Source: Bacteroidota bacterium (GTDB lineage Bacteria > Bacteroidota > Bacteroidia > NS11-12g > UBA955). From it: a stretch of DNA of 46,535 nt. Positions 28,801 through 46,210 of the stretch are shown here, piece by piece. Position 1 is the stretch's first letter; each line of letters begins with the position of its first letter. The position numbers and the translations under genes are program-made. The stretch covers positions 1-46,535 of the forward strand of contig VGFS01000015.1 in the NCBI GenBank assembly GCA_016868785.1, read 5' to 3'. Under the pieces are notes generated by a model. It was given only the letters and a program-made list of their open reading frames with translations, searched no databases and had not been told where the DNA came from.

Positions 28801-29596
28801 TGTAACCTACACCACTTACCGTAACATCGATTTCTCTACCATCACAGGTTTCCGTGGTACATTCTCTATGAATGATATTGGTGGTGTTGGTGGTATCCCC
28901 GGACCATTCTCGTTTGTTGCCAGTTACATGTTGCAATTTGCCGATGGTACTGGATCAAACATTAGTTCTCAGGCGGCTTTGATTGCTTCGAATCAACCCA
29001 ACTTGCGGAACGTGATTCCTTTGGGTGAATTGGATATCCGTCACAACATCAAATTGATGGCCACCTGGGCTTATGGTGGTGGTATTGACCCTAAGACCAA
29101 AAAGAACTTGTACTTAGGTCCCAAAATCAATGGAAAAGAGATTTTCAAATACGCGAGCTTTAACATTATCTCAAATTCATACAGCGGTACGCCATACACT
29201 CCAACAGTTCGTCCTGTACAGGTGGGTGCTGTGGATCGTGCTCAAATCAAAGGAGTTCCCTATGGCGCTCGATTGCCTTGGCAGCAAACCTTTGACATCA
29301 ACATCACCAAAGGGGTTCGTTTCAACCGTGAAGACAATGGAAAGCCATTGATAATGAGTGTGTTCTTCTGGGTTCAGAACGTGTTGAATGCGCGCAATGT
29401 GAATTCGGTTTATCCATTTACTGGTCAAGCGATGGATGATGGATTTATCAATTCTCCCCAAGGTCAATTGTTGGCTAAGAACCAGATTGATGCTCAGAGT
29501 TACATTGACCTGTATAAAATTATGTTGGCTTCTCAAACAGGCATGTTGGGTGCACCCAGAACCGTGCGTGTAGGTGTTCGTATCAACTTCAACTAA
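25808..29596 (+). CDS. TonB-dependent receptor with carboxypeptidase-regulatory-like N-terminal domain
   Basis: 1262 residues with a signal peptide ending VSAQ. Residues ~28-105 form a carboxypeptidase-regulatory-like beta-sandwich (DQDGRNLSGVKI, GNVGFPTLSPGKYGVRATKEGY). A plug domain follows with GISVRGTRADGNGNFIDG and GGIPAMYGDLTGG, and then a long barrel ending in RVGVRINFN. It is an outer-membrane active transporter or a surface-complex component energised by TonB. No SusD-like lipoprotein is adjacent. The two downstream genes encode a T9SS type A surface protein and a PorV/PorQ-family protein, separated by only 18 and 11 bp, so the three probably work together. The ligand is unknown. Confidence 0.85.
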   Translation: MKYMLRKIMALAVVVLTIGVVSAQTNFADVRVKAKDQDGRNLSGVKIVMLLNNIEVASDTTDSDGNVGFPTLSPGKYGVRATKEGYPDQQIENLQLQAGPNPDEEIIFLKSGSGTMGPAIIKVKGKRAPVDFLKSESVIDGAKIVGSGQRGTGLLESTNAAILTTPQGISVRGTRADGNGNFIDGQRVIGGGGLPTLGTEQISANVGGIPAMYGDLTGGVFSSTSKSATDRVVTAVEGITSTGLDPFGYNTVEGFISGPIWVKEEKDPSTGKTKRNVKLGYMMNANLGYAKDPNPTRTGVYVVNESKLAEIENNPLVFTPNGFVHSASYLRTEEFDLLKARPNSANGNGNFIGKLEWRPNQYVSVTGYASYFYSSGLAASNSVMNYKNNARGDNQTFRTYLLFTQNFKTNKESSIKNAFYSVRAEYQNTYALTRDARHLDNIFDYGYIGKFQSYPTAVFQYANYDPSQNPNKEPKIVRDQFGNYVQLRNYWEQVGYADSLMTFAASDKNPLRAKYTENIYDYYDSRGFKIQNMNTLLINQGLVNGMNPNGVYSLHGTPGGITAGYSKSNTERYGVFAVGQMSVQPKTVNGRERTKHDLQAGFYYEQQISRGYGLGANGLWILMRQQMNKHILELDVSNPILSYDANGQFTDTVRYNRLINYGEQSHFDRAFRDKLIAKGEKDVYGNTIDERSFVDINSYDPGMFDLNMFNADELLNNGNGFVSYFGYDHLGNKVNGKPSIEQFLNNKDQRTIGAFQPVYIAAWLQDQFRFKDLVFRLGMRMERYDANQLVLKDPYTLYPIKTAAEVTEINGLAISHPGNIGEDYRVYVNDIQAPTKIIGYRNGDRWFNADGSELKSAEFLANQTSNGRIAPYLVNPNKLELTKDALEDFTPVLNVLPRVWFSFPLEPERKSFYVSYDVLAQRPNAGASFLSIDELYYLKNRQGSTISNGSLQPRIKTDYEVGYKQIFGVKKDRGLEIAASYSENRKDFGLYQISQGYPVTYTTYRNIDFSTITGFRGTFSMNDIGGVGGIPGPFSFVASYMLQFADGTGSNISSQAALIASNQPNLRNVIPLGELDIRHNIKLMATWAYGGGIDPKTKKNLYLGPKINGKEIFKYASFNIISNSYSGTPYTPTVRPVQVGAVDRAQIKGVPYGARLPWQQTFDINITKGVRFNREDNGKPLIMSVFFWVQNVLNARNVNSVYPFTGQAMDDGFINSPQGQLLAKNQIDAQSYIDLYKIMLASQTGMLGAPRTVRVGVRINFN

Positions 29597-29614
29597 AAAG
29601 AAAAGAAAGAATTT

Positions 29615-32600
29615 ATGAAACGATTAGGAATATTTTTACTCTCTGCGTTGTTGGTTTCAATGGCGGTTGCCCGTCCTATTGTGAACTTGAATGGCCGAGG
29701 AAATGCTCCCCGTGTAGATCGTAGAGCGGGTCAGTTCGCCAATACGTGTGAACCTGCTTCACAGAGTGCGGATTTGGATGTGAACAACGTTCGAACCAAG
29801 CTGTTGAACGGTGGTGACATGTGGTGGGATTTGAACAACCCGAAATATGAAATTCCCAAAATTAACGATCCAAATGCCGTTCGGAAACATGCGATGTTTG
29901 CGGGTGCGATTTGGATTGGTGGTCGTGATAATGGGGGTAGTTTGAAGTTGGCAGCGATGACTTATCGTCAAAAAGGTTCTGACTTTTGGCCAGGTCCATT
30001 GGACACAACTACAGCAGGTACCGACCCGGTGCGTTGTAAAGCGTACGACAAAATGTGGAAGGTAACCCGTGACGAGCTGGAAGATTTTGAAAGCAGCAAA
30101 TATTTGAATCAAAGCACAGGCATTCGCGATTGGCCTGCGGGTCGTCAGCGTGCCATCCTTTTTGGCAATGAAGCGAAATATTTGGCTCCATACAAAGAAG
30201 TGACTCCTGATGGTGTATATGACCCTTTTGCTGGGGAGCACCCTGTTTTGGATGACCGTCGCCCTTCGATTGACAATGGTGTAGACAAGCAGCCTGATAT
30301 GTTTATCTGGTGGGTTTACAATGACAAGGGTAATATTCACAGTGAAACCCAAGGTCAACCCATTGGTATTGAAATTCAAACAACGGGTTTTGCGTTTGCC
30401 ACCAACGATGAGGTGAACAACATGACTTTCTACAGCTCAAAGATTATTAACCGTGGATTTACAACATTGAACGATTGTTACATGGGACAGTGGGTAGATG
30501 CCGATTTGGGTAACTATGCCGATGACTATGTGGGTTGTGACGTAGGCCGTTCATTGGGATACTGTTACAATGGTGACGATGATGATGAAGGGGTTTTGGG
30601 TTATGGATTGAATCCTCCTACTGTGGGTGTGGACTATTTTGAAGGTCCCACTGATTCAGCAGGCAATCAATTGGGTTTGAGTCACTATATGTACTACAAC
30701 AACGACAACGACCCAGTTCGTGGTAACCCTGGTGAGGCCATTGAGTATTACAATTTGTTGCAAGGTAAGTGGTTAGGTGGTCAGAATGTAACGTATGGCG
30801 GAACAGGATTTGGTGGTTCTAAGCCAGCCAAGTATATGTTCCCTGGAGACACAGATCCTTCATATTCTTTGGAGACATGGACAGAAAAAATTGCCGGTAA
30901 TAAACCCGGCGACCGTCGTTTCTTGCAATCCACAGGTCCATTCACATTGCGTCCAGGACAGGTTCAAAGAATCACGGTGGGTGTAGTTTGGGCTCGTACA
31001 ACCAGTGGTGGTGCTGCAGGTTCGTTGAATTTGTTGAAGATTGCTTCAGACAAAGCACAGACTTTGTTCAATAACAACTTCAAAATTTTGGATGGTCCAA
31101 ACGCACCTGATATTGAGATTCAAGAGATGGAGCAAGAGTTGGTAATGAAGTTTTTGAATACCAACAGCAATAAAGTTGAGAACTACACTGAGAAGTATAA
31201 GGATGCCAATAACAAGGAGCGTACTTATAAGTTCGAAGGTTACATGGTGTATCAGTTGAAAGATGCGACTGTGAACACGGGTGATTTGGATAATATCGAC
31301 AAAGCGAGATTGTTGTTCCAGTGTGATATGAAGAATAACCGTGGTATGATCGTTAACAAGGTGTACGATCCCAAATTGGCGGCTTTGTTGCCAGTGGTAA
31401 AAGTGGAGGGTGCTGACCAAGGAGTTCAACATACGTGGAGCATCAAGAATGACTTGTTTGCAACTACATCGAATACTCAATTGGTCGACTTCAAACCCGT
31501 ATATTACATGGTGTTATCATATGCGATTTTGGCGGATGATTCATTGCAGGTTGACCCAAATCAGTTCTTGGCAGGTCGTAGAAATATCAAGACGTACAAA
31601 GCCATTCCACACAAGGTGGAGCCAGAACAATTCGGTACAGAATTACAATCAAGCTATGGCAGTGGTCCAGTATTGACCCGTTTGGCCGGTCGCGGTAATG
31701 GTGGAAACGTATTGGAATTCACCAAAGAAACCGTAGATGAAATATTGAAGAACGGTTTTGCCAAGGAAGCTACTTATGTGGCGGGTTCTGGTCCTGTTAA
31801 AATCAAAGTGGTGGATCCTATCAAAGTGCCAAATGCAAAGTTTGAATTTGTATTGCGCGAGAACAAGGCATCTTTGGCCTCTGGTTTGAAAGATTCAATC
31901 ACCAAAAATACTGGCTGGTATATGGTGAAGAAGGGTGCTACTGATTTGGAGAATGACACCATCTTCAGCGATACAATTATCGGTGTTGGTTTTGAGTCGG
32001 TTCAAGGTCGTCGCGGTAAGAACAACAAGACAACAGAAACCTTGGCTGATTGGGGCTTTAGTGTGGAAGTTGAGCAGGTTTTCAACCCGGGTGAAAATGC
32101 CACAGCCGATCCCAGTAACGGTATGTTAAGTTGGAATGTGACATGGGAAAACAACGGTAAACAATGGTTAACCGCAGTTGCGGATAACGATGCACAAAAT
32201 ACCGCAAACTCTGGTGCCTTGTGGCAAAACTGGATTCGCGCTGGTAGCAACGGTAGGGGTGGAACGTTTGATCCTTTGATTCACGATTTCTTCAACCAAG
32301 ATGGTACACCGGCTGATCCAGGCCAAGCTTTCGAACGTATTTGGAATGGAAGAATCGCGCCATATGGTTTGGTAGCTCGCGAGAAATTAACCGCACAAGG
32401 CAGAAATACTTATGGATTTGCGTGGTGGGGTAATTCTTCAGGGTTGCAGAACCCGTTGAGTGAATTGGCCAGTGTGAGAATTGTAATTACTAAGGATAAA
32501 AACCTCTGGACCCGTTGTCCGGTGTTGGAGATGTCTGATGATGAATTGAAAAATTCAAACGACGGACAAATGGAGAAATTCAACATGCGTTACGCCCCTT

Positions 32601-33505
32601 CTGTTGATAAGGATGGTAATCCAATTTCAGGTTCTATGGGCTTGAGTTGGTTCCCAGGCTATGCCATCAACTTGGAAACCGGCGAGCGTTTGGCTATGGC
32701 TTTCTCAGAGGATAGTTATTTGGGTGGAGAGAACGGAAAAGACATGATTTGGAATCCTACCGATAAGGTATACAACGACAATGGTAACTATCCTGCGATG
32801 GGTGGTAAACACTTCGTGTATATTTTTGGAACGGGTGTGAGTGGTATCTCTCGTAACATCAGAGGAGAGCGTTACATGGGTGAGAATGAAGCGAACTTCC
32901 AACGTTTCAAAACGGCTTTGTTGCCATCAGCACCCGGTGGAAAAGTTGCCACTTTGGATAAGACGCGTTTGCTTTCTCAGATCATGTGGGTGATGCCAAC
33001 ATACATGGCGGCCGGATACAAAATGGAGAACAAAAATGTGCCTCCAACCGATGTGGCCTTCAACATTAACATCCGTAAGGCTTACACAACCTACGACGCG
33101 GGTAATAACATCAACAACAACCGTCCAATATACTCTTTTGATGCAGCGAGCATCGCACCGAAAGTTTCAAATGAGTTCGGAAGAAAGAGCTTGGATTTGG
33201 TGAATGTTGTGCCAAACCCTTACCGCGGATACAGTGAGTACGAAAACAGTCCGATCGATTCAAGGGTGAAAATCACCAACTTGCCACCGGAGTGTACCAT
33301 CACCATTTTTGACATGGCGGGTAACGTGATTCGTCGTGTAAACAAGGCGGACAACAATACTTACTACGAGTGGGATTTGAAAAATGGAAGTAACGTGCCT
33401 ATTGCCTCTGGATTGTACTTGATTCACGTTAAGACAAAAGATTTGGGTGAGAAGGTAGTTCGTTGGTACGGTATCATGCATGCCATTGATTTGGATACTT
33501 ATTAA
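29615..33505 (+). CDS. Large T9SS type A cargo (surface or secreted protein)
   Basis: 1296 residues with a signal peptide (about 1-19). No catalytic domain is recognised. The C-terminus (about residues 1200-1296) is a variant type A T9SS sorting domain: VVPNPYRGYSEYENSP, VKITNLPPECTITIFDMAGNVIRRV, ending GLYLIHVKTKDLGEKVVRWYG plus an unusual ~9-residue tail. The mature part is Asn/Gly/Asp-rich with acidic runs near residues 322-330 that could bind Ca2+. It sits between a TonB-dependent receptor and a PorV-family gene. Export across the outer membrane by T9SS is expected from the sorting domain; the job at the surface is unknown. Confidence 0.8.
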   Translation: MKRLGIFLLSALLVSMAVARPIVNLNGRGNAPRVDRRAGQFANTCEPASQSADLDVNNVRTKLLNGGDMWWDLNNPKYEIPKINDPNAVRKHAMFAGAIWIGGRDNGGSLKLAAMTYRQKGSDFWPGPLDTTTAGTDPVRCKAYDKMWKVTRDELEDFESSKYLNQSTGIRDWPAGRQRAILFGNEAKYLAPYKEVTPDGVYDPFAGEHPVLDDRRPSIDNGVDKQPDMFIWWVYNDKGNIHSETQGQPIGIEIQTTGFAFATNDEVNNMTFYSSKIINRGFTTLNDCYMGQWVDADLGNYADDYVGCDVGRSLGYCYNGDDDDEGVLGYGLNPPTVGVDYFEGPTDSAGNQLGLSHYMYYNNDNDPVRGNPGEAIEYYNLLQGKWLGGQNVTYGGTGFGGSKPAKYMFPGDTDPSYSLETWTEKIAGNKPGDRRFLQSTGPFTLRPGQVQRITVGVVWARTTSGGAAGSLNLLKIASDKAQTLFNNNFKILDGPNAPDIEIQEMEQELVMKFLNTNSNKVENYTEKYKDANNKERTYKFEGYMVYQLKDATVNTGDLDNIDKARLLFQCDMKNNRGMIVNKVYDPKLAALLPVVKVEGADQGVQHTWSIKNDLFATTSNTQLVDFKPVYYMVLSYAILADDSLQVDPNQFLAGRRNIKTYKAIPHKVEPEQFGTELQSSYGSGPVLTRLAGRGNGGNVLEFTKETVDEILKNGFAKEATYVAGSGPVKIKVVDPIKVPNAKFEFVLRENKASLASGLKDSITKNTGWYMVKKGATDLENDTIFSDTIIGVGFESVQGRRGKNNKTTETLADWGFSVEVEQVFNPGENATADPSNGMLSWNVTWENNGKQWLTAVADNDAQNTANSGALWQNWIRAGSNGRGGTFDPLIHDFFNQDGTPADPGQAFERIWNGRIAPYGLVAREKLTAQGRNTYGFAWWGNSSGLQNPLSELASVRIVITKDKNLWTRCPVLEMSDDELKNSNDGQMEKFNMRYAPSVDKDGNPISGSMGLSWFPGYAINLETGERLAMAFSEDSYLGGENGKDMIWNPTDKVYNDNGNYPAMGGKHFVYIFGTGVSGISRNIRGERYMGENEANFQRFKTALLPSAPGGKVATLDKTRLLSQIMWVMPTYMAAGYKMENKNVPPTDVAFNINIRKAYTTYDAGNNINNNRPIYSFDAASIAPKVSNEFGRKSLDLVNVVPNPYRGYSEYENSPIDSRVKITNLPPECTITIFDMAGNVIRRVNKADNNTYYEWDLKNGSNVPIASGLYLIHVKTKDLGEKVVRWYGIMHAIDLDTY

Positions 33506-33516
33506 TAAAAAAGAAG

Positions 33517-34620
33517 ATGAATCGCAGACAAAAAAATATATTTTTGGCCGGATTGATGACCATCGGTGTGGTGGCCACTGCTGTCGCTGGTAACCCCGAG
33601 CGTCAAGGTCAGGCTGGATCAGCGCAGTTGACCATTAACGGCTGGGCGCGTTCTAGCGGTATGGGATGGGCTTACGGTGGTAAAGTGAGCGGTACAGAGG
33701 CCATGTACATGAACGTGGCTGGTTTGGACCGTATCAAGAACACAACCGAAATGAGTTTCTCTCGCACAGAGTGGTTGATGGGTTCAGGTATTGCTATCAA
33801 CAATGCGGGTTTTGCCCAAAAAGTGGGTGAAAGCGGAACCTTTGGTATCCATGTGATGCAATATGCAATCAAGCCCATTGATATCACCACGGAACAAAAT
33901 CCATACGGTGGTATTGGTACTTTCCGCGTGAACATGACCAACATCGGTTTGGCTTATTCTAAGAGTTTCAGCAGCAACATTTCGGCTGGGATCATGGCAA
34001 AAATGGTGTCTGAGGGTATTCCTGATGCGCAGGCTTCGGGCATCGCATTGGATGCAGGTGTACAATACGTGACAACCTTACGTCCAGTACGTGGTGGTGT
34101 TAAGAAAGACGATTTCCGATTTGGTATTAGCATGAAAAACATCGGTCCGGATATGCAACATTCCGGGGATGGTTTGAGCTATAAGGCGATTTTGGACAAC
34201 GGTACTTTCAGCAAAACCGTTCAGGTGAAAGTGGACAACATCAAGTTGCCTGCGTTGTTAAACATTGCGGCATCGTATGATGTTAAGTTGGATTCTGATC
34301 CAAATCAGTACGACAACAAACTTACCTTGGGCTTTGGTTTTACCAACTTTGCGTTCAGTGCCAACCAATTGACTTTGGCTGCAGAATACAGTTACAAAGA
34401 ATTTTTGTCGCTCCGCGCTGGCTTTGCCTACCAAGAGGGAATCTTGAACGAGGAAACCCGTCCGTCTGCCTTCACTGGCCCGATGGCTGGTTTGAGCTAT
34501 GACTGGAAGATGGGTGAAGACGGCAATACGGTGAGCTTGGATTACTCTTACAGAGCCACCAATCCTTTCAGCGGTGTACATTCATTTGGTATTCGCATCG
34601 GATTGGGTGCTGCTGAATAA
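33517..34620 (+). CDS. PorV/PorQ-family outer-membrane protein
   Basis: 367 residues with a signal peptide ending VAG. The sequence has the PorV/PorQ (UPF0164-like) pattern: SGMGWAYGGKVSGTEAMYMNVAGL, the strand-rich middle with GLAYSKSFSSNISAGIMAKM, and an outer-membrane final strand near FGIRIGLGAAE. PorV is the outer-membrane shuttle that carries T9SS cargo from the translocon to the attachment complex. This paralogue follows a T9SS cargo gene by 11 bp and may be dedicated to it. It could be PorV itself, but the operon context favours a paralogue. Confidence 0.82.
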   Translation: MNRRQKNIFLAGLMTIGVVATAVAGNPERQGQAGSAQLTINGWARSSGMGWAYGGKVSGTEAMYMNVAGLDRIKNTTEMSFSRTEWLMGSGIAINNAGFAQKVGESGTFGIHVMQYAIKPIDITTEQNPYGGIGTFRVNMTNIGLAYSKSFSSNISAGIMAKMVSEGIPDAQASGIALDAGVQYVTTLRPVRGGVKKDDFRFGISMKNIGPDMQHSGDGLSYKAILDNGTFSKTVQVKVDNIKLPALLNIAASYDVKLDSDPNQYDNKLTLGFGFTNFAFSANQLTLAAEYSYKEFLSLRAGFAYQEGILNEETRPSAFTGPMAGLSYDWKMGEDGNTVSLDYSYRATNPFSGVHSFGIRIGLGAAE

Positions 34621-35587: not shown

Positions 35588-36373
35588 ATGAAGCCCGAGT
35601 TGTTTCATATCGGCGGGATTACCCTATACAGTTACGGATTGTTCATTCTGTTGGGGATAGTTGCGGCGTTTTTGCACTTGTATTTCAACCGGGTTCGGTT
35701 GGGTATGGACGTGGATTCAATCAGTGAATTGATTTTGTGGTGTGGTGCGGGGGTATTTGTGGGGGGCAAATTGTTTTTTTTCTTCGAGGACCCAGTAAAA
35801 TATTGGAACAACATGGGACATTTTATGTCGCACCTGGGCGATGGCTTTGTGTTTTACGGGTCGTTCTTGGTAACGTTGCCGGTATTGTATTGGTGGTTTA
35901 GACAGCGGGGTTGGGATTTTTGGGATCGGATGGATGATGTGGGGATTGCGGGTGCTTGGGTGCATGCTCTTGGGAAAATTGGCTGTTTGATGGCGGGATG
36001 TTGCCATGGGCTGGTTTGCAAACCGGGGGAATGGGGGATTGTATTTAGGGATTCTAAGTCGCACGCCGAGCCGTTAGGCGAGGCGTTATATCCGGTTCAA
36101 CTGTGGGACTCCGCCATTATTTTGTTGAGCATTGCCATCATGTATTGGCTTCAGCGTCGAGGGAAATCGTTTTCCGGGCAGGTATTTTTGCTTTATGCAC
36201 TGGTGTATGGCATCGGCCGATACATCACAGAAGGATATCGCGGTGATGGTGAACGTGGTTTTGTTTTTGGTGGCTTGTTTTCCCATAGCCAATTCATCGC
36301 CATTTTGGTGGTGGTTGGGTCGATGTTGTTGTACGGATATTTGAAAAAACGGGGGTTAAGGAATACGCTATGA
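35588..36373 (+). CDS. lgt: Prolipoprotein diacylglyceryl transferase
   Basis: 261-residue polytopic inner-membrane enzyme that attaches diacylglycerol to the lipobox Cys of prolipoproteins. Landmarks are YSYGLFILLGI near the N-terminus, DGFVFYGSFL, and GKIGCLMAGCCHG, followed by LYPVQLWDS and the C-terminal YGIGRYITEGYRGD with conserved Arg and Glu. It ends in ATGA, overlapping the holB start. The lipoprotein at 1-505 is a potential substrate in this window. Confidence 0.95.
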   Translation: MKPELFHIGGITLYSYGLFILLGIVAAFLHLYFNRVRLGMDVDSISELILWCGAGVFVGGKLFFFFEDPVKYWNNMGHFMSHLGDGFVFYGSFLVTLPVLYWWFRQRGWDFWDRMDDVGIAGAWVHALGKIGCLMAGCCHGLVCKPGEWGIVFRDSKSHAEPLGEALYPVQLWDSAIILLSIAIMYWLQRRGKSFSGQVFLLYALVYGIGRYITEGYRGDGERGFVFGGLFSHSQFIAILVVVGSMLLYGYLKKRGLRNTL

Positions 36374-37488
36374 GGTTTGCACAGGTAATCGGACAGGAAA
36401 TCATCAAAGAGCGCATGATTCATGGCGTTCGCGTGGGACGGATACCCCATGCCCAGTTGATTTTGGGCGCTGAGGGAAGCGGGAATTTGGCCTTGGCGCT
36501 TGCCTATGTGCAGTACATACTTTGCAACCAACCTTCAGAAACAGACAGTTGCGGCGAGTGCAGCAGTTGTAAAAAAGTGTCGGCCCTGATTCATCCAGAT
36601 GTTCACTTTAGTTTCCCTTTTCCCAAAAAGGCTGGAGAAATGGAGCAATGCTCGGATGTATACCCTCAATGGCGCACCGCCTTGCAGGAAGATCCTTATT
36701 TGAATTACGAGGATTGGATGCAGCAGCTCAATGCGGAAAATAAACAGGGAAATATTCCCACCAAAGAATTGAGAAACATCATCAAGAACATCTCGCTCAA
36801 ATCCTACGAAGGCAAGATGAAGGTGTGCTTGATTTGGTTGCCAGAATACTTGGGCCAGGAGGGAAATATCCTCCTCAAAAGCTTGGAAGAACCACCGGAA
36901 CAGACGTTGTTCTTGCTGGTGGGCAGCGATTTGGATGCAATTTTAGGAACCATTCTCTCGCGCACACAATTGGTGAGGGTGGCGCCCATTGACGATGCTT
37001 CATTGTCGTTGGCATTGCAAACCCGTGAGAGCATAGCTGCCGATGATGCTCAGCGGTTGGCCAAAGTGGCTCAGGGCAATTATCGGTTGGCACGGGACTT
37101 AGGCAAGGAGGCAGGGAATCCCCATTTAGACGCCTGGCGAATTTGGATGACCATTTGCTTCCGTCGAAAAATGGGTGAGGCTTTTCAATGGAGCGATGAT
37201 ACGGCATCGTTGGGACGTGAAGGGGTGAAATCGTTTTTGTTGTATGGGATTCAAGTCTTGCGCACTTGTGCGGTGTTGCCCTATACAGGTTCGGAAGGAC
37301 TTTGGGAGGGCCCGGAACTCGATTTTGTAAACAAGTTCAATACGTTGCAGTTGGGAGAAGGCGTGATTGGCCAGATGGTCACAGTTTTGGAAAAGGCCTT
37401 TTACGGCGTTGAACGAAATGGGAATGCCAAAGTATTGCTCATGGATGCAACCTATGGGTTGATTCAGGCAATCTCGAAAAAAAATTAG
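36370..37488 (+). CDS. holB: DNA polymerase III delta-prime subunit (clamp-loader AAA+ ATPase-like)
   Basis: 372 residues. It has the clamp-loader N-terminus FAQVIGQEIIKERMIHGV, IPHAQLILGAEGSGN, and a zinc module C52, C61, C64, C67. The P-loop is degenerate (GAEGSGN lacks the Lys-Thr/Ser pair), as expected for delta-prime, which does not hydrolyse ATP. LIWLPEYLGQEGNILLKSLEEPP and the sensor-like SRTQLVR also fit. The start overlaps lgt by 4 nt. An ECF sigma gene follows after 66 bp. Confidence 0.9.
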   Translation: MRFAQVIGQEIIKERMIHGVRVGRIPHAQLILGAEGSGNLALALAYVQYILCNQPSETDSCGECSSCKKVSALIHPDVHFSFPFPKKAGEMEQCSDVYPQWRTALQEDPYLNYEDWMQQLNAENKQGNIPTKELRNIIKNISLKSYEGKMKVCLIWLPEYLGQEGNILLKSLEEPPEQTLFLLVGSDLDAILGTILSRTQLVRVAPIDDASLSLALQTRESIAADDAQRLAKVAQGNYRLARDLGKEAGNPHLDAWRIWMTICFRRKMGEAFQWSDDTASLGREGVKSFLLYGIQVLRTCAVLPYTGSEGLWEGPELDFVNKFNTLQLGEGVIGQMVTVLEKAFYGVERNGNAKVLLMDATYGLIQAISKKN

Positions 37489-37554
37489 GGGGCCAGACAA
37501 CCTATGGACGATGAATGTCATCTTGGGTTTAAATCTGGGTCATGTTGAAACAGA

Positions 37555-38091
37555 ATGACAAATCTAACGGAGCCAAAGTTACAAGAGTTGTTGCGCGCGT
37601 GTTTGGCGGGAGATCGCAAGGCACAGCAGTCGCTGTACCAACAATTTGCTCCAGTGATTTATGCCATTTGTGTTCGATACATGGGCGTAACAGATGAGGC
37701 CAAAGATATGCTACAAGAAACCATGGTGAAATTTTTCCAAAAGTCGAATGAGTTCCGTTTCCAGGGATCCTTGGAAGGTTGGGTGAAGCGTATCGCCGTG
37801 AATACTTGTTTGGATCAAATCAAAAGAAATAAGGCCAAGTATGCGAGCAGTTTGGATGAGGCCTATGAGTTGGCGGGTGATGTGAATGCCGCGCAACCAT
37901 TGGAGACCAAAGATTTGTTGCGTTTGGTGTCGTCTCTGCCCGATGGTTATCGCGCTGTGTTTAACATGTATGCGATAGAGGGATTTTCTCATGCTGAGAT
38001 TGGTGAAGTGTTGGGGATTTCAGAGAATACCAGCAAGTCACAGTTGTTCAAAGCCCGCAAATGGTTGCAGGCGAAAGTGGAAAGAAGCTAA
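37555..38091 (+). CDS. ECF-type RNA polymerase sigma factor
   Basis: 178 residues. Sigma region 2 spans about 10-90 (QQFAPVIYAICVRYMG, DEAKDMLQETMVKFFQ, GWVKRIAVNTCLDQIKR). Region 4 spans about 120-175 (LPDGYRAVFNMYAIEG, HAEIGEVLGISENTSKSQL). No region 1.1 or 3, so an extracytoplasmic-function factor. It overlaps by 1 nt (TAATG) the next gene, whose N-terminal cytoplasmic stretch and membrane helix mark it as the likely anti-sigma partner. The target promoters are unknown. No consensus vegetative promoter is evident in the 66 bp upstream. Confidence 0.93.
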   Translation: MTNLTEPKLQELLRACLAGDRKAQQSLYQQFAPVIYAICVRYMGVTDEAKDMLQETMVKFFQKSNEFRFQGSLEGWVKRIAVNTCLDQIKRNKAKYASSLDEAYELAGDVNAAQPLETKDLLRLVSSLPDGYRAVFNMYAIEGFSHAEIGEVLGISENTSKSQLFKARKWLQAKVERS

Positions 38092-39215
38092 TGGGTGAAG
38101 ATCTGAAACATATCGACGAGCTATTTAAGCAAGGGTTGAGTGACGCTCAGATGTCGCCCCCGCCCGGCGTGTTTGAGCAATGCATGGAGCAGTTGGATGC
38201 CTCGGCGCATGCAGGTGCAGGGACAAATTCGAGCACCTGGTGGAATGGTTTGTTGAAATCGCCTTGGGCAATTTTGGGTACGGCGGTTGTGGTGGGTGTT
38301 ACTGTGTTTTTGGCCTTGGGTGACGGTGAGCAAAAAAACAGTAAGGGTAAATCGGTACAAACCCCTGAAGCGCAAGTTTCACAGGTTGAAGTGGGTGCCG
38401 GTTCTATGGCTGAAGATGGTGTAGCCTTGTCAAATAAGGAACATGCTACGGTGGCAGAACAAGCTTTACAATCAAGCGATGTGAGTGGAGATAAGGCGGG
38501 TGTAGCGAGCGTATCATCGGGTTCTGGATCTGTGTTAAACCAAGAGAGTCCAACCAATGAAAAGACATCGGCAACGGTGGAGTTGAACAGTGTGGCGCCC
38601 AAAAACAATCGGGTGATGGTGGCAGAAAACAAGGTGAAACCCTGTGCAGTGGCTATGGGCTCTTGGCGACCTGTGATCGCGGAAAATGTGGGTGGCTCGG
38701 TTTCTTTGGATTTGGTGGGCTCGTTCCACGATATGAAAATTCACTGGGGTGATGGAGAGGTGGGTGGTATAATTGGCCATGGGGATGCGGGGAACAGTCG
38801 CTTGAACCATGTTTATTATGTGTTGCAGCGAAAGAACTTCACCCTAAAATTGGTGAACAGACACCGCGAAATTGGCAGTGGATTGGTGTGTGCCGACAGC
38901 CAGCGCATCAATGTGGCAGTTTCACCATCGAATGAGGTTTCGGAGGTGTTTGTGCCGGATGTTTTCACTCCCAATGGCGATGGAACAAATGATGTGTTTT
39001 TTGTGGAAATGCCTAAGCCGTTGCAATACGATATTACCATATTGGATGCCAAGCAAAGAACCGTTTTCAGAAGTAATGATTATTTGTCGAGGTGGACGGG
39101 CATGTGCAGTGAAAGCGAGTGTAAAGAAGATACTTACCGTGTGATATTGGCTTATAAATACAGTGGAGATAGTGAATGGAAATATATCCGAAAACAAATT
39201 AAATTAATTCGATAG
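38091..39215 (+). CDS. Probable anti-sigma factor with periplasmic PKD-like and T9SS type B (CHU_C) domains
   Basis: 374 residues from the ATG at 38091, overlapping the sigma gene stop. There is no signal peptide. Residues 1-56 are cytoplasmic-like, with the HIDELFKQGLSDAQMSPPP pattern that resembles Bacteroidota anti-sigma N-termini. One membrane helix covers about 57-76 (WAILGTAVVVGVTVFLAL). A Ser/Thr/Glu-rich linker (80-180) follows, then a PKD-like segment with IHWGDGE (219-222). A gliding motility-associated C-terminal/type B T9SS sorting domain fills 285-374, with VFTPNGDGTNDVF at 291-303 and a terminal KQIKLIR. Four Cys occur in the periplasmic half, two of them close together in MCSESEC. 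That a sorting domain sits on an inner-membrane protein is the odd feature; regulation of the sigma factor is inferred from position and topology. Confidence 0.75.
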   Translation: MGEDLKHIDELFKQGLSDAQMSPPPGVFEQCMEQLDASAHAGAGTNSSTWWNGLLKSPWAILGTAVVVGVTVFLALGDGEQKNSKGKSVQTPEAQVSQVEVGAGSMAEDGVALSNKEHATVAEQALQSSDVSGDKAGVASVSSGSGSVLNQESPTNEKTSATVELNSVAPKNNRVMVAENKVKPCAVAMGSWRPVIAENVGGSVSLDLVGSFHDMKIHWGDGEVGGIIGHGDAGNSRLNHVYYVLQRKNFTLKLVNRHREIGSGLVCADSQRINVAVSPSNEVSEVFVPDVFTPNGDGTNDVFFVEMPKPLQYDITILDAKQRTVFRSNDYLSRWTGMCSESECKEDTYRVILAYKYSGDSEWKYIRKQIKLIR

Positions 39216-39293
39216 TTACACCTAATATAAAAAATTTCGATGAGGATTTTAAGGAAAAACATCATGAAAACGTCAATAAATGGGGGTATGGGC

Positions 39294-39324
39294 TTGGGAA
39301 ACCGGGTTAAATCTTCTATTTTTG
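39294..39324 (+). promoter_or_regulatory. Promoter of the large PKD/T9SS type B gene
   Basis: TTG at 39294-39296, a 20-bp spacer, then TATTTTTG at 39317-39324, a full TAnnTTTG match. It lies about 20 bp upstream of the ATG at 39345. This favours that ATG over the in-frame ATG at 39240, which is upstream of the promoter. Confidence 0.65.
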
Positions 39325-39344
39325 ATCGATTACACACAGAAAAA

Positions 39345-42300
39345 ATGCCTAAAATGAAAGGTTTATTGAACATAATGAAGGGTGCGGTGGTTGCGATCGT
39401 AGCCACGCTAACGTCCATCGGCGACGCTGCGGCTCAGTGTACGATTCAGTACAATGGGTCTCCTTGCGTTGGTGTGCCAGTAAGTTTCAACGGTTCTAGC
39501 ACGGGTACTACCCATGATTGGAACTTCAACAACGAAAACACACAGACCGGACTGAAGAACTTGAACTACGCTTTTAAAACGGCGGGAAACAAAGTGGTGA
39601 CTTACGTTACTACCATCAACGGAACGAAGTGTACTTCTACGTTAAACTTGGTGGTGCGTGAATCTCCCAAGATCAAGTTGAAATTGCAAAACTTGTACGA
39701 GCAGTGTTTTGAAAAGAACTTGTTTTGTTTCACCGACAGTACCAAGAGTGGTAACGGCGGTAAAATCACCAAGATCAAATATTTGGTGAGTGACGGACAA
39801 TTGTTCGAATACACCAATCCTACATTGCCTCAGACTTTCTGTTTCTCAGTGAAGGATGAGCGTGGAGGTTTGTTTGATTTGTACGTGGAGGTTGAAGACG
39901 AATATGGCTGTATTGACACCATGAAATTGGTGGCTGCAGTAAAGGTTCGTGAAAAGATTGGAGCACGTTTCACCAGTAACAAGCCGGTGGCTTGTGATAG
40001 TGTGACCGCAACGATCAATAACATTTCTCGTATCGATAAGAGTCAAGTAAAGAAAATTACTTGGTATTGGGGCGACGGTTCAACAAGCTCAGATTGGGGA
40101 CCAACAATCAAAAAGACCTTCCGCGGTCAGGGTACCTATAATTCCAAAGTGGTAATAGAAACCATCGATGGTTGTAAAGATTCATTTACCGTTCAGGCAA
40201 CAGCCTCAGTATTTAAGTCGAAAGCGACCATATGGGCAAGTAAAGATTCAACTTGTATCAGTGATCCCAAAATTGATTTTGGTGTCGACGAAATTCCCCA
40301 AGGGGCTACGGGTTTGTTGTGGAATTTTGGTGACCCAAATACAGGGCCACAAAACTTTGATAACAGAACATGGTCCCCAAGTCACAGTTTCTCAGGTCTC
40401 GGACCATTCTTAATTCAGTTGACCTACAGTCACCCAATTTGCGGTAACAAAACCGCTTTCGATACCATCATTATCTTGGGTCCAGCGTCTACCATTGAAG
40501 TGGCGTTTAACCGAATCGCGGAATTTGAAGTATTCCAGTGCCCGAAAGATGTGATGGATACCGTTCATTTCAAGAACTTCTCAACTTTCTACCACAACGA
40601 CTACGACTTCACTGACGATGACAGTACATTCTACAAGTGGAATGGTACTTTGGGGCATACATTCCAAAAGAACGCGAATGGTACTCCCCGACAGATATGG
40701 CAGAAGCCCTTGCGCAACGAGAAGAACTCAAACGGAACCAAGTCTGTATACGCGGGCAATGCCTCTCCGGGTGGTGGAAACGATTATCTCAAGCGTGAAC
40801 GTGTGTGTGCCGTTCGTTTGTGGGATTTCAGTGATACCTACGCGCCGAGGTGTACTACCGATGTTACACGAAATAAAAACGTATTTGTAAACTGTCAGTA
40901 CTCACACGATACTTTGCCAACCCACTACTATAAATCTTGGGATTTGGTCTTGTTAGATCGTTTCAAGAACGCTCCGATGGAGGATGCGATTTTCATCACT
41001 TCCACAGGTTTGTGTAAGAAGATTCAAGTATGGGCATCTGACACCTTATGGATTGTAGAAGATTCAATCTTGTTTATCCCCCGCGATGCAGGAGACTCAG
41101 CGACCGCCGCAGATTCCAAATATGTAAATGCCATTAAGCACTATGTTCCATACAAGTGGTTGAAAGGTCCCGGAGAAAGGTTGGTAGAAGACTCAATAAC
41201 GATTGTTTTGGGTGCAAATGACTCTGCTTATGTGAATGGCACCCTGCACAAAGGTCCGAAATTTGTAAAAGCCAAAGACAAAGACATCGTGAAGTTGGTG
41301 AGCAAAACCGATTCAGTGATGTACAACTTCTCTGCTTATACCAAGCGGGATACATTGCCATTGCCTTTGCTAAAAATTCGCTTGGCCAAAGGTGAAAAAC
41401 CCCGCAAAATCAAAATGTTGTTGATGTCGCAGATGGGCCGATTCAATGGTTTGAACTACGGCACAGATTACATCATTGACTACAAGCGTTACCGCGAGTT
41501 GTATTATGCGAGAATTCCCCAGTGTAACAACGTAAGACTGCTGCATAAAGATACTTGTCATCCAATGAAGTGTGAAAGCGAAGCCACCAAACAGTTGGCC
41601 ATGCTTCACGCGAATGCCGGCGGTGTAGGTTCTGGTTTGTTGAAGGAGTCTATCGAGTGTTTGGGTGCTAAGAACCCCCAATACGGTGTAACCTTCATTT
41701 TGAGCGATTTGAAACCTGGATGTACTTTCTCTACGGTTTCTATCAACTTCGATTCAACTTGTAACCCCAATGGATGGGTGGCTTTGAGTGGCTTGAGCCC
41801 AGGAAACCGTCCTCCAGGACCTCCATTCCCTGGATACCAAATAGCGGGTAACCCCCCAAGTCGCTATTCTAAGCAATACTCTGCATCGCAAGTTTGTGAT
41901 CCTAGCGGATGTATTACTGTGGGTATCGTCGTGGGTAACGGTGTACGCAAGCCCGGAACATTCTCTCCTCCAACCCCTGATCGTCCAATTTGTAGCGATA
42001 CTCAGTGGTACAGAAAGTTTGCTTGTTTCCCCTTGATCGATCCGGCCTTCGAAGTAATTACCCCATTGCCTAATCCAGTGGGAATCAGGAAGATTTGTAA
42101 AGGTGATGCAGTTGTTGTCCGTCCGGTAGTTGGAAATAAAACCCGCACAGACGATTTGAAATCATTGCGTTGGTCATTTGAAACTGGAAACGCTTGTCCG
42201 AGCTACTCACGTGGATGGCGCCGTTATATCCAAGAAGACTACTTCCGTTACCAAAAGGTACCTGGCAAGAATCCCAATCGTTTGTACAACTACGTGATTC

Positions 42301-44738
42301 AAACCCGTGGTGGTGAAGACCCTGTACAGGTTCCATGTACTGATATTTGGAACGACGGTCCAACCCGTACCTTTAAAGGTCCTGATACCATCTTGACTGC
42401 GGAGATTCGTGCTTGGGAAATTGGTGCAGACGTATCTGCGGCATGGGAAAGGATTAAGGAGCGTGTTGAGGCGCGTGGCTTTGACCCATTCTCATTGACA
42501 GGTCCTCAAATTGCCAAAATGATTTGGAACAACAAAGGGGTTATTGGTCAGCCCGCCACCGGTGCATACGGCTGTATTGATACCACTGGTTTCGGTAAGT
42601 TGATTCGTTACTACGTAATTCCCAACAAGGACAGTATGACGATTTTGAACTACCGCGATACCACGATTCGTCCTACAGACTTCGAAAAAGTGGGTAACAC
42701 TACCTACAGCGCCTACAAATTTGTGCCGAAGTGGAATGGTTACCACATCATGAGTTTGGCGATGACTTCTAGCAACGGTAAGTGTGATGATATTGCGGCC
42801 TACCCAGTATTGGTTGGTTTCGCGATGGAGTTGGAATTGCCAGACAGTATTGTTTGTCAAGACCAAGCCACTACGTTGAACGCGTTGCCTAAGTATAAAA
42901 TGTTCCACCCAGATCCGATCAACTTCGGAACATGGGATTACACAGACTACTGGAGAGATCCTGTACGTCAGGCTGAAACGGCCCAAGGTAAGAAGAACCG
43001 CGAGCCTTTCACCAAGTGGGATTGGAACAAAGCCGATGACGACAAGAGCAAGCCTGTTACCATCTTCGGTGGTCAGCCATGGGGCGGTACTGGTGTAGGT
43101 ACACCTGCCTTGCCATGGGTTGACTTGGGTGGTGGTGGAGCCTTGGCTACTTACTACAAAAACGATTCAGGTGTGTACATCTTCCGCAACGTAGCGGGCG
43201 ACAGTACCGGCTGTATGGATACAATCGCACGCAAATTGTTCATCTCTCGTTTGGATGTGAAATTTGGTTTGAACGTTCAGGTGCCTTCTTGTAACTCGAT
43301 CATTGAATTCTTTGATAGCAGCTTCTTGCACGATCCATGTTCATGGGCAATGAAGAACTGTAATGGTCCTACACCGATGCAGTGTGATTATATCAAAGAA
43401 TGGTTCATCGATTGGGGTGATGGGTATAACAACTTGTACAAGCGTGATGCTTCTAACAAGGCGGGATTGCCAGATCGTGTCGCTCACAAATACACCCGCA
43501 ACGGTTGGTTTAAAGTTCAATACACACTGAAGACCGATCAAGGTTGTGAAGATACCTTCAGCCGTTGGATCAAAATTCCTGGACCTCGTCCAAGATTTGA
43601 ATTCACCACCAAAGGTGGCAACGAGGTGACCATTTGTGCCGGTGATAGCATTCAATTTACCAACTTAACGGATAGCGCGTCAACATCCGCTGACTGGACC
43701 TGGTTCTGGGGTGATGGAAAAATCGATAACCAGAAAAATCAATTCTTGTGGCATAGGTACGTAAATGCGGGTAAATACTATGTGTTCTTGGAGCAGTACG
43801 ATTCATTGATTTTGCCTCCTAACATTCGCAGATTCTGTCCTGCTACCTTCCCTGATACCCCATCTCAAAAGGCCTTTATCATCACGGTATTGCCAAGAGA
43901 TACGGTGAGAGGATTTGTATTGAAACCAGCGATTTGTTTGGGTGATAGTAACATCTTCATCGACAATTCAGACACTGTATTCAAGTCTTACAAGTGGAAA
44001 TTCCACAACTTGAGTACCGGTCAGATCGATACGGTGACAACCTCTAACAAGCGATTGGCTTGGAAATTTACCCAGCAGGGCCAGATAAGGGTGTCGCATT
44101 TTGCCGACTACGATCCAAACAGGCCTAGACCTTGGTGTCCGACCGACGTAGCCGACCAAATCTTCTTGGTAGACTCTGTGGTTGCTGATTTCGACATCGA
44201 TGCTACGAAGACGCCGGATTACACCTTCACCCGCAAAGACGTGAATGGAACACAGTTCCGTTGGGGCTTTAATCACCAGGAGGACATCACTTTGCGTCCT
44301 GGATTGCCTTTGATTGTTGACAACAAATCAACCGATAAGATTGTCAGCGCATCGTACAGCGGTACCGATACCTTCTATGTTTGCTTGGAAGTAACCAACG
44401 CTACGGGATGTAAAGACACCATCTGTAAGCCTGTATACGTGAACCAGTTCATTTACTTGGCCAATGTATTCACACCAGGAAACAACGATGGCAAGAACGA
44501 TGTATTCCGTGTGCCGATTGCGGGTCATTCTTTGTTTGAAATCCGCATCTTCAACCGCTACGGTGAGCGCGTGTTCATCAGCAAAGATCCTCAGGTACAG
44601 TGGAATGGTCGTGTGAACAACGACGGTCCGGAAGTACCATCAGGAACCTACTTCTACCAGTTGACTTACCAATTCAAGGGTAAGCCAGATGTGAACAAGG
44701 TAAATGGTTCGGTGAACGTTATTCGCAAGGAGCCTTAA
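39345..44738 (+). CDS. Giant multi-PKD T9SS type B surface protein
   Basis: About 1797 residues from the ATG at 39345, chosen because a consensus promoter sits just upstream and it yields a normal signal peptide (MKGAVVAIVATLTSIGDAAAQ-like region). The in-frame ATG at 39240 would add 35 residues. Several PKD-like domains are visible, marked by WYWGDG (near 40063), NFGDPN (near 40325), DWGDG (near 43412) and WFWGDG (near 43704). The long middle part is Asp/Thr-rich with many Cys and no recognised fold. The last ~90 residues are a gliding motility-associated C-terminal (CHU_C) type B sorting domain: VFTPGNNDGKNDVF and IRIFNRYGERVF. It is probably an adhesin or structural surface protein. It follows the sigma/anti-sigma pair and ends before a strong terminator. 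Confidence 0.85.
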   Translation: MPKMKGLLNIMKGAVVAIVATLTSIGDAAAQCTIQYNGSPCVGVPVSFNGSSTGTTHDWNFNNENTQTGLKNLNYAFKTAGNKVVTYVTTINGTKCTSTLNLVVRESPKIKLKLQNLYEQCFEKNLFCFTDSTKSGNGGKITKIKYLVSDGQLFEYTNPTLPQTFCFSVKDERGGLFDLYVEVEDEYGCIDTMKLVAAVKVREKIGARFTSNKPVACDSVTATINNISRIDKSQVKKITWYWGDGSTSSDWGPTIKKTFRGQGTYNSKVVIETIDGCKDSFTVQATASVFKSKATIWASKDSTCISDPKIDFGVDEIPQGATGLLWNFGDPNTGPQNFDNRTWSPSHSFSGLGPFLIQLTYSHPICGNKTAFDTIIILGPASTIEVAFNRIAEFEVFQCPKDVMDTVHFKNFSTFYHNDYDFTDDDSTFYKWNGTLGHTFQKNANGTPRQIWQKPLRNEKNSNGTKSVYAGNASPGGGNDYLKRERVCAVRLWDFSDTYAPRCTTDVTRNKNVFVNCQYSHDTLPTHYYKSWDLVLLDRFKNAPMEDAIFITSTGLCKKIQVWASDTLWIVEDSILFIPRDAGDSATAADSKYVNAIKHYVPYKWLKGPGERLVEDSITIVLGANDSAYVNGTLHKGPKFVKAKDKDIVKLVSKTDSVMYNFSAYTKRDTLPLPLLKIRLAKGEKPRKIKMLLMSQMGRFNGLNYGTDYIIDYKRYRELYYARIPQCNNVRLLHKDTCHPMKCESEATKQLAMLHANAGGVGSGLLKESIECLGAKNPQYGVTFILSDLKPGCTFSTVSINFDSTCNPNGWVALSGLSPGNRPPGPPFPGYQIAGNPPSRYSKQYSASQVCDPSGCITVGIVVGNGVRKPGTFSPPTPDRPICSDTQWYRKFACFPLIDPAFEVITPLPNPVGIRKICKGDAVVVRPVVGNKTRTDDLKSLRWSFETGNACPSYSRGWRRYIQEDYFRYQKVPGKNPNRLYNYVIQTRGGEDPVQVPCTDIWNDGPTRTFKGPDTILTAEIRAWEIGADVSAAWERIKERVEARGFDPFSLTGPQIAKMIWNNKGVIGQPATGAYGCIDTTGFGKLIRYYVIPNKDSMTILNYRDTTIRPTDFEKVGNTTYSAYKFVPKWNGYHIMSLAMTSSNGKCDDIAAYPVLVGFAMELELPDSIVCQDQATTLNALPKYKMFHPDPINFGTWDYTDYWRDPVRQAETAQGKKNREPFTKWDWNKADDDKSKPVTIFGGQPWGGTGVGTPALPWVDLGGGGALATYYKNDSGVYIFRNVAGDSTGCMDTIARKLFISRLDVKFGLNVQVPSCNSIIEFFDSSFLHDPCSWAMKNCNGPTPMQCDYIKEWFIDWGDGYNNLYKRDASNKAGLPDRVAHKYTRNGWFKVQYTLKTDQGCEDTFSRWIKIPGPRPRFEFTTKGGNEVTICAGDSIQFTNLTDSASTSADWTWFWGDGKIDNQKNQFLWHRYVNAGKYYVFLEQYDSLILPPNIRRFCPATFPDTPSQKAFIITVLPRDTVRGFVLKPAICLGDSNIFIDNSDTVFKSYKWKFHNLSTGQIDTVTTSNKRLAWKFTQQGQIRVSHFADYDPNRPRPWCPTDVADQIFLVDSVVADFDIDATKTPDYTFTRKDVNGTQFRWGFNHQEDITLRPGLPLIVDNKSTDKIVSASYSGTDTFYVCLEVTNATGCKDTICKPVYVNQFIYLANVFTPGNNDGKNDVFRVPIAGHSLFEIRIFNRYGERVFISKDPQVQWNGRVNNDGPEVPSGTYFYQLTYQFKGKPDVNKVNGSVNVIRKEP

Positions 44739-44818: not shown

Positions 44819-46210
44819 ATGAAATCTCAAGCACCTTCAGACACCATAGTAGCCCGGGCCACGGCGGCCGGGGTGGGCGCAATTGCCGTTGTGCGGGTAT
44901 CGGGCGGTGGGGCTTGGTCGATGACCGATGCATTGTTGAAGAAGCCGGTGGGGGATCAACCCTCACACACAGCGCATTTGCGCACGATGTACGATGCCGA
45001 CGGGGTGATGGATGAGGCGCTGATTACGTTGTTTCAGGGCAAGCGGAGTTACACGGGGGAAGACACGGTGGAGATTTCGGTTCACGGCAGTGAGTACATC
45101 GTATCTCGGGTGCTGAGGGCTTACATGGATCTCGGGGCGCGTTTGGCTGAACCGGGCGAATTTACCCAGCGGGCGTTTTTGAATGGTAAACTCGATTTGG
45201 CGCAAGCGGAGGCCGTGGCCGACCTAATCGCCTCTGAGCATCGAATGGCGCACGATTTGGCCTTAAAACAGCTAAAAGGGGGCTTTTCGAAGGACATAGC
45301 CACCTTGAGGGATCGGTTGTTGCATTTTACCAGTTTGGTGGAATTGGAATTGGATTTCGCGGAGGAGGATGTAGAGTTTGCGGAGCGGGGCGAGTTGAAG
45401 TTGTTGGTAGAGCGGATTCAATCGGAGGTGTTGACTTTGCGGGATTCCTTTGCTTTGGGAAATGTGATCAAGAAGGGGTTGGCATTGGTATTGGCGGGCC
45501 GACCGAATGCGGGGAAAAGCACGTTGTTTAATGCGTTGCTGAATGAGGATCGCGCGATTGTGAGTGACATCGCGGGGACCACGCGGGATGCCATAGAGGC
45601 GCAGTTGAATTTTGAGGGATTTATGTTGCGTTTGATCGACACCGCGGGGATCAGGGAGGCCACGGATGTGATAGAGCAGGAGGGTATTGCGCGCACATTT
45701 TCTCATGTAGAGAAGGCGGGTGCTACCCTGTATTTGTTAGACGTGGGCAGTTGTTCAATGGAGGATGCCCGTCAGGATTTGTTGATGCTGAAGCAAAAGA
45801 CATCGCGGGTGTGGGTGGTTTGCAACAAGGTGGATTTATTGGGGGATTTGGACCGACAGTCGTGGATGGATATGACCGCGGAGATGGGGTTGGAGGCGCC
45901 TTGGTTTGTATCGGCCAGGGATAAGGTTTCGGTGCAGGCGTTGCGGTTCGCTTTGGAAGCCCGTTTTTGGGGGGGATTGTCGGATGTGGGTGACCAAACC
46001 GTGGTGACGAATGTACGTCACGCTGAGTCGTTGGATCATTGCGCTGTGGAGATGCAGCAGGTATTAGACGGGATGGCTTCGGGTTTGTCGGGCGATCTGC
46101 TGGCCTTCCACTTGCGCGAGGGGATTCGGGCGTTATCGGGAATTACGGGCGAGATCGGGGTTGAAGAGATTCTTGGATCGATCTTCTCGAAGTTTTGTAT
46201 CGGAAAGTGA
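44819..46210 (+). CDS. mnmE: tRNA uridine-5-carboxymethylaminomethyl(34) synthesis GTPase MnmE
   Basis: 463 residues. With MnmG it modifies U34 of tRNAs reading two-family-box codons. It has the N-terminal tetrahydrofolate-binding domain (DTIVARATAAGVGAIAVVRVSG, PGEFTQRAFLNGKLDLAQAEA split around it) and a G domain with G1 GRPNAGKST (about 227-235), G3 DTAG and G4 NKVD. The C-terminal FCIGK supplies the conserved C-x-G-K. All key motifs are intact. Confidence 0.98.
   Translation: MKSQAPSDTIVARATAAGVGAIAVVRVSGGGAWSMTDALLKKPVGDQPSHTAHLRTMYDADGVMDEALITLFQGKRSYTGEDTVEISVHGSEYIVSRVLRAYMDLGARLAEPGEFTQRAFLNGKLDLAQAEAVADLIASEHRMAHDLALKQLKGGFSKDIATLRDRLLHFTSLVELELDFAEEDVEFAERGELKLLVERIQSEVLTLRDSFALGNVIKKGLALVLAGRPNAGKSTLFNALLNEDRAIVSDIAGTTRDAIEAQLNFEGFMLRLIDTAGIREATDVIEQEGIARTFSHVEKAGATLYLLDVGSCSMEDARQDLLMLKQKTSRVWVVCNKVDLLGDLDRQSWMDMTAEMGLEAPWFVSARDKVSVQALRFALEARFWGGLSDVGDQTVVTNVRHAESLDHCAVEMQQVLDGMASGLSGDLLAFHLREGIRALSGITGEIGVEEILGSIFSKFCIGK

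Follow-up and report, generated by a model that had tools for sequence, protein, structure and literature searches.

Why should a protein encoded directly behind an ECF sigma factor gene, and apparently lacking a signal peptide, end in a domain that resembles the type B sorting tag of T9SS cargo? The protein is found in a 46,535-nucleotide stretch of Bacteroidota DNA (contig VGFS01000015.1), hereafter the window, where three genes follow one another on the forward strand: an ECF sigma factor of 178 residues (37555–38091), the 374-residue protein in question (38091–39215) and, 24 bases further 3′, a giant PKD/CHU_C surface cargo of 1832 residues (39240–44738). The TAA stop codon of the sigma gene and the ATG of the next share one A at 38091, confirming the 1-nt overlap of the original prediction. 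The sigma factor matches Sigma70_r2 and r4_2 above the Pfam cut-offs and TIGR02937 above the ECF superfamily cut-off (78 versus 42.9 bits), and has an orthologue in every trio locus described below. The giant exceeds the cut-offs for PKD_4, PKD, CHU_C and TIGR04131, and in the trio loci it is likewise found 3′ of the gene for the anti-sigma protein; it contains many invariant cysteines. The upstream flank (36370–37488) we take, from gene content, to be a holB-like gene for DNA polymerase III delta′, and the trio is followed by mnmE (44819–46210).

Judged from its sequence and setting, the 374-residue protein is probably an anti-sigma factor that holds the adjacent ECF sigma inactive. Its N-terminal segment, residues 1–56 (38091–38258), is the putative sigma-binding part, with two helices at residues 3–17 and 27–37 in the AlphaFold model and a motif, ID.LF...L..A...PP.GVWE, that alignments show to be conserved throughout the order-level family. 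By hydropathy, the sole hydrophobic stretch lies at about residues 57–80 (38259–38330) and none is N-terminal, which bears out the earlier description of a protein with one central membrane helix and no signal peptide. This helix, the putative inner-membrane anchor, is seen in the window protein and its relatives, a few of which fall under a simple hydropathy threshold. The positive-inside rule was discarded as support for the expected topology, since Lys/Arg counts were 1.1 before and 1.7 after the helix. Residues 81–190, approximately (38331–38660), form a low-complexity, predicted disordered and presumably periplasmic tether, with pLDDT values of about 42–65 (mostly 42–54 over residues 41–180); across 76 proteins, the spacing from helix to CHU_C domain ranges from 122 to 307 residues.

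Two tandem β-sandwich domains complete the model. The first, residues 192–277 (38664–38921), carries WGDG at about residues 219–222 and is modeled with confidence (pLDDT about 85–97). No Pfam match to a PKD domain was obtained in the window protein; nevertheless, we accept a PKD reading because the profile of the family finds collagenase PKD domains (E 7e-5), counterparts in other families exceed the PKD cut-off (one PKD in L237, two in L247) and the model is a β-sandwich. The PKD segment of the original prediction thus stands as a fold, if a dispensable one that occurs in 0 to 2 copies among relatives. The second sandwich, residues 285–374 (38943–39212, pLDDT 92–98), is the CHU_C domain, with VFTPNGDGTNDVF at residues 291–303. 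PF13585 matches residues 287–357 with 39.1 bits against a Pfam cut-off of 27, and the NCBIfam model TIGR04131 gives 27.3 bits against a cut-off of 35; the CHU_C claim therefore holds at the level of Pfam and falls short at that of TIGR04131. A Foldseek search of the model against the PDB gave nothing beyond generic fibronectin/Ig-like sandwiches. ASD, zinc-finger and FecR domains were all absent, with Pfam and NCBIfam empty outside the CHU_C domain at E values up to 1. In one survey, about 6% of Bacteroidota ECF sigma factors had a recognizable class I anti-sigma factor nearby (PMC7406223).

A genome scan with the alignment of the giant returned 71 loci, and in 55 of these, besides the window, all within one order, the complete trio of sigma, CHU_C protein and giant (about 1600–2000 residues) is present. 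Recurrence of this layout next to an orthologous sigma in so many loci places the architecture beyond chance. Among the 16 incomplete loci, several contigs are too short to show a trio, and the rest hold giant-like paralogues with no neighboring sigma; such paralogues (L151–L153 and L155–L160, about 1560–1715 residues, without an adjoining sigma or anti-sigma gene) come in several cases from genomes that also hold a full trio. In most loci the CHU_C gene overlaps the sigma gene or begins within 8 bases of it, and a few gaps reach up to 78. Short forms of about 280–304 residues, in which the tether leads directly to the CHU_C domain over 122–156 residues, lack the PKD domain (L060, L065, L072 and L073) and keep the remaining parts; the constant parts are therefore the N-terminal motif, helix, tether and CHU_C domain. 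The giant cargo is much better conserved than the anti-sigma protein, with 95% versus 50% identity in the close relative L040. Loci of this lineage also occur in MAG records that bear the names Chryseobacterium gleum, Chitinophaga pinensis or Sphingomonadales (L112, L119, L122, L132, L135 and L145) and are apparently mislabeled, and at L147:9878–15364 the giant gene is broken into two frames (560 and 1263 residues).

In all complete trio loci the giant gene lies 3′ of the CHU_C protein gene, as would be expected if the latter encoded a membrane-anchored assembly or docking helper of the giant cargo that merely shares an operon with the sigma factor. A fused model of the sigma and N-terminal segment, built by reading through the TAA of the sigma gene at L139, where both genes are in frame, would also fit this role: binding was not demonstrated in it, with a pTM of 0.38 and N-terminal helices at pLDDT 55–65 versus about 75 alone. 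The evidence that weighs against a helper comes from beyond the order. A phylum-wide search by full-length alignment was rejected, being flooded with ordinary secreted CHU_C proteins (L087 and L097 among them); the sigma alignment was used instead on 247 genomes of the class, where it found related ECF sigmas in large number, and 40 loci were read. Of the 38 that were classified automatically, the downstream protein was CHU_C-tailed in 26 and of another kind in 12, and two more, L236 and L254, were found by eye to be CHU_C-tailed with CHU_C cargo. The CHU_C-tailed loci cover ten families of Bacteroidia outside the order of the window.

A Pfam scan of seven of the non-CHU_C proteins gave an outer-membrane β-barrel match in five, of which three exceed the cut-off, and a profile built on the N-termini of CHU_C forms matches seven of the 12 over 15 bits, reaching 39. 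Many class-wide CHU_C loci keep the sigma gene yet have no adjoining cargo, which makes cargo the less constant of the two partners, and barrel-tailed proteins with the same N-terminal motif take the same position, which is the described Dma layout (PMC13088901). We consider a role as cargo helper alone quite improbable, and an anti-sigma role remains our preferred reading. The next gene encodes CHU_C cargo in 14/26 CHU_C loci and 0/12 of the others (Fisher p 0.0011, a value to be read with the caution that related genomes are non-independent and that two of the 12 other loci had fewer than 400 bases downstream). Among the CHU_C loci of the class, roughly one in two has no CHU_C cargo as its next gene, which counts against the docking model developed below. 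On the sigma tree, at least five switches of tail type are needed, compared with 11.4 for shuffled labels, a pattern that may be compatible with a single origin. In the genome of the window itself, each of the two next closest ECF sigmas precedes a single-helix protein (441 and about 460 residues; L264 and L265; C8:59822 and C3:70494), and their C-termini are barrel-like in appearance, with no significant Pfam match; this genome may hold both tail types, CHU_C and barrel-like.

Compared by described layout, the Dma (dual membrane-spanning anti-sigma) family is the closest described kind. In Dma proteins of Bacteroides the N-terminal domain is followed by a helix, a disordered tether and a β-barrel, and the proteins adjoin ECF21 sigma genes and restrain the encoded sigmas (PMC13088901). 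The window protein resembles Dma proteins, such as Dma1 and Dma2 of Bacteroides thetaiotaomicron, in its adjacent ECF sigma, short N-terminal domain, single transmembrane helix (by hydropathy), long disordered tether (by pLDDT) and folded C-terminal domain meant for the outer-membrane side, and the operon includes the sigma in both. A further link is provided by the barrel-tailed proteins that share its N-terminal motif and adjoin closely related sigmas. Unlike Dma, it has a CHU_C domain with optional PKD, both β-sandwiches in the model, in place of an outer-membrane β-barrel, and a giant CHU_C cargo gene often comes next. The conserved overlap or adjacency of the genes, the shared N-terminal motif and this resemblance to Dma all agree with the predicted sigma/anti-sigma pair, the anti-sigma member of which would close its periplasmic part with a type B-like domain, and they suggest a modular family of envelope-spanning anti-sigma factors with either a β-barrel or a T9SS-type tag as the outer domain. 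We found no description of the CHU_C-tailed architecture in the open-access literature searched, in line with the earlier suggestion that it may be undescribed; an earlier account elsewhere is possible.

What, then, does the tag do? In a tree of 80 anti-sigma and 65 cargo CHU_C domains the two groups separate almost completely, with two label changes against a shuffled mean of 48; 51 of the 65 cargo rows represent one orthologous protein. The TPNGDG.ND, W.G and G.Y cores are kept in both groups alike. A cargo motif, N-R-W-G, sets them apart: its R is present in 64/65 cargo and 16/81 anti-sigma domains, its G in 63/65 and 29/81, respectively, and its third position is aromatic in 62/65 cargo domains, whereas the window protein reads DAKQ at residues 319–322. 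Recent borrowing of the domain from the neighboring giant, or gene conversion with it, was rejected, as anti-sigma domains score no better against the giant of their own locus than against giants elsewhere (108.8 versus 108.1). By these comparisons, the anti-sigma CHU_C domain is probably an old, separate and specialized subfamily rather than a plain export tag. Competition with cargo for the secretion machinery, as the original prediction had considered alongside reporting on it, is therefore less likely than docking or sensing, which we favor.

The same divergence would also fit an anti-sigma factor of this kind in which CHU_C is a convenient Ig-like module that has lost its link to the T9SS and binds something else, for which peptidoglycan, a lipoprotein, the body of the cargo or an external ligand are candidates. 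The anti-sigma domains make up a clade apart, have changed faster than those of cargo, lack N-R-W-G, fall below the TIGR04131 cut-off and show no extra similarity to the giant of the same locus. Yet the core motifs and the C-terminal position are retained across the set, CHU_C cargo neighbors are far commoner than beside barrel-tailed relatives, and the PKD domain is freely lost while CHU_C is not; we regard this reading as unlikely, though the likeliest of the alternatives to docking. A sorting-type domain at the extreme C-terminus, behind a long and potentially cleavable linker, further raises the possibility that the C-terminal part is cleaved off and exported by the T9SS, so that export removes the anti-sigma factor as with FlgM in the flagellar system. 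We assign this little probability: FlgM is soluble and exported whole, whereas the 374-residue protein has no signal peptide and is without the cargo-type N-R-W-G motif.

Upstream of the sigma gene, at 37496–37524 on the forward strand, GACAACC-N15-TCATCTT is a predicted ECF-type promoter of the sigma/anti-sigma/cargo operon, the same motif recurring in relatives at a near-constant distance from the sigma gene. The pattern RCAACY-N17-DTCT was found upstream of the sigma gene in 47/56 order loci versus 0.075 in shuffles, a descriptive figure because the pattern was picked after the order sequences had been viewed; the class-wide loci, with 17/38 versus 0.06 expected, come nearer to an independent check. 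In the order loci it lies at −44 to −62 from the start codon, mostly at −57 to −61. Its layout is that of an ECF promoter under autoregulation. Across the window genome, the strict motif gave six matches versus seven in a reversed control, and since it is not above control elsewhere, the operon itself is the main predicted target. A broad regulon was rejected on these counts, and non-operon sites in 77 relatives were also near control (by eye, unsummed); a weaker or degenerate regulon beyond the operon may exist. Coupling of the sigma to general T9SS load, as first proposed, thus gives way to control, predicted from the promoter motif, mainly of an operon with one giant type B cargo.

Promoter-like matches were also seen elsewhere. 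One on the reverse strand at 36814–36842, inside the holB-like gene and also in the close relative G001, is probably coding sequence. In one sister-family genus a similar motif lies about 110 bases upstream of a 379-residue protein with a signal-like N-terminus (L182:2272, L183:1264 and L184:3933, the last two on the reverse strand), and in another it lies near the start of a DUF1573-like protein (L186:8669, L187:8705 and L193:1347, the last two on the reverse strand; by eye).

The genome of the window carries SprA, four PorP/SprF-family genes and 16 CHU_C matches, and the T9SS is therefore present. Type B cargo such as SprB and PG1035 (PMC9143113) shares with the window protein a C-terminal CHU_C domain, common PKD domains and SprA and PorP/SprF in the genome; the window protein differs in having no signal peptide, a putative inner-membrane helix in mid-protein, no N-R-W-G motif and a TIGR04131 score under cut-off. 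Since type B tags reportedly use PorP/SprF-like proteins of the outer membrane as binding partners and do not depend on PorV (PMC9143113), the PorV-type shuttle named as a possible partner in the original prediction is probably not one. A PorV-family gene lies upstream in the window (33517–34620). No PorP/SprF gene is present in the sigma/anti-sigma/cargo operon, which counts against docking.

We propose that the protein is a Dma-like, envelope-spanning anti-sigma factor whose modified CHU_C domain docks at the outer-membrane T9SS and tunes the sigma to cargo export, a proposal to which we give an even chance. It builds on the shared plan of Dma, on the binding of type B tags to PorP/SprF and on the influence of the T9SS tag protein PorA on PorXY-SigP (PMC13088901, PMC9143113, PMC7712824). 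The N-terminal two-helix segment would keep the adjacent ECF sigma at the inner membrane, where one helix would anchor the protein, and the disordered tether, with or without PKD spacers, would span the periplasm. The CHU_C domain would dock at the outer-membrane end of the T9SS pathway without inserting as a β-barrel, most likely at a PorP/SprF-like or SprA-associated site. The sigma would drive its own promoter and thereby the operon of sigma, anti-sigma and one giant type B cargo, and the state of the docking site, free or cargo-occupied, would set the restraint on the sigma, so that cargo synthesis is matched to export capacity. We favor this docking model because the trio is conserved, in 55 loci besides that of the window, with sigma and anti-sigma genes that overlap or adjoin; because the N-terminal motif, helix, tether and CHU_C domain are constant while PKD varies; because of the skew in cargo neighbors, the conserved promoter, the T9SS in the same genome and the old, separate CHU_C subfamily that lacks N-R-W-G; and because related Bacteroidia sigmas precede CHU_C tails in 26 of 38 loci, the remaining 12 having proteins of other kinds, some of them barrel-tailed. 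Against it weigh the low pTM of the fused sigma model with its less confident N-terminal helices, the charge pattern around the helix and the absence of Pfam and NCBIfam anti-sigma matches from the N-terminal segment. A little more tentatively, we extend the model to the class: a family of anti-sigma factors would have turned the type B domain into a sensor of docking or occupancy at the outer membrane, through which export of a single dedicated giant feeds back directly on the sigma. As the locus supplies a promoter, a partner and an operon as target, the idea is directly testable, and it bears on how Bacteroidota match the output of giant surface proteins to secretion capacity.

Two known systems offer partial parallels. 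The outer domains of RsgI anti-sigma factors include carbohydrate-binding modules like those of the enzymes that they regulate. In Clostridium thermocellum these anti-sigma-I factors are membrane substrate sensors that regulate the transcription of cellulosome genes (PMC12203970); the likeness is by description, and they differ from the window protein in being Gram-positive, of sigma-I type and directed to carbohydrate sensing. In Porphyromonas gingivalis, PorA, which bears a T9SS tag, feeds into PorXY-SigP and so affects the activity of an ECF sigma factor (PMC7712824). PorA is a surface protein acting via a two-component system, whereas in the window it is the putative anti-sigma factor that carries the tag.

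Elsewhere in the window, a three-gene run at 25808–34620 encodes a 1262-residue protein with a carboxypeptidase-regulatory-like domain, a 1296-residue protein whose C-terminus is of the PorZ-like/type A sorting kind, and a member of the PorV/PorQ family that scores above the PorV_fam cut-off and below that of the PorV equivalog.
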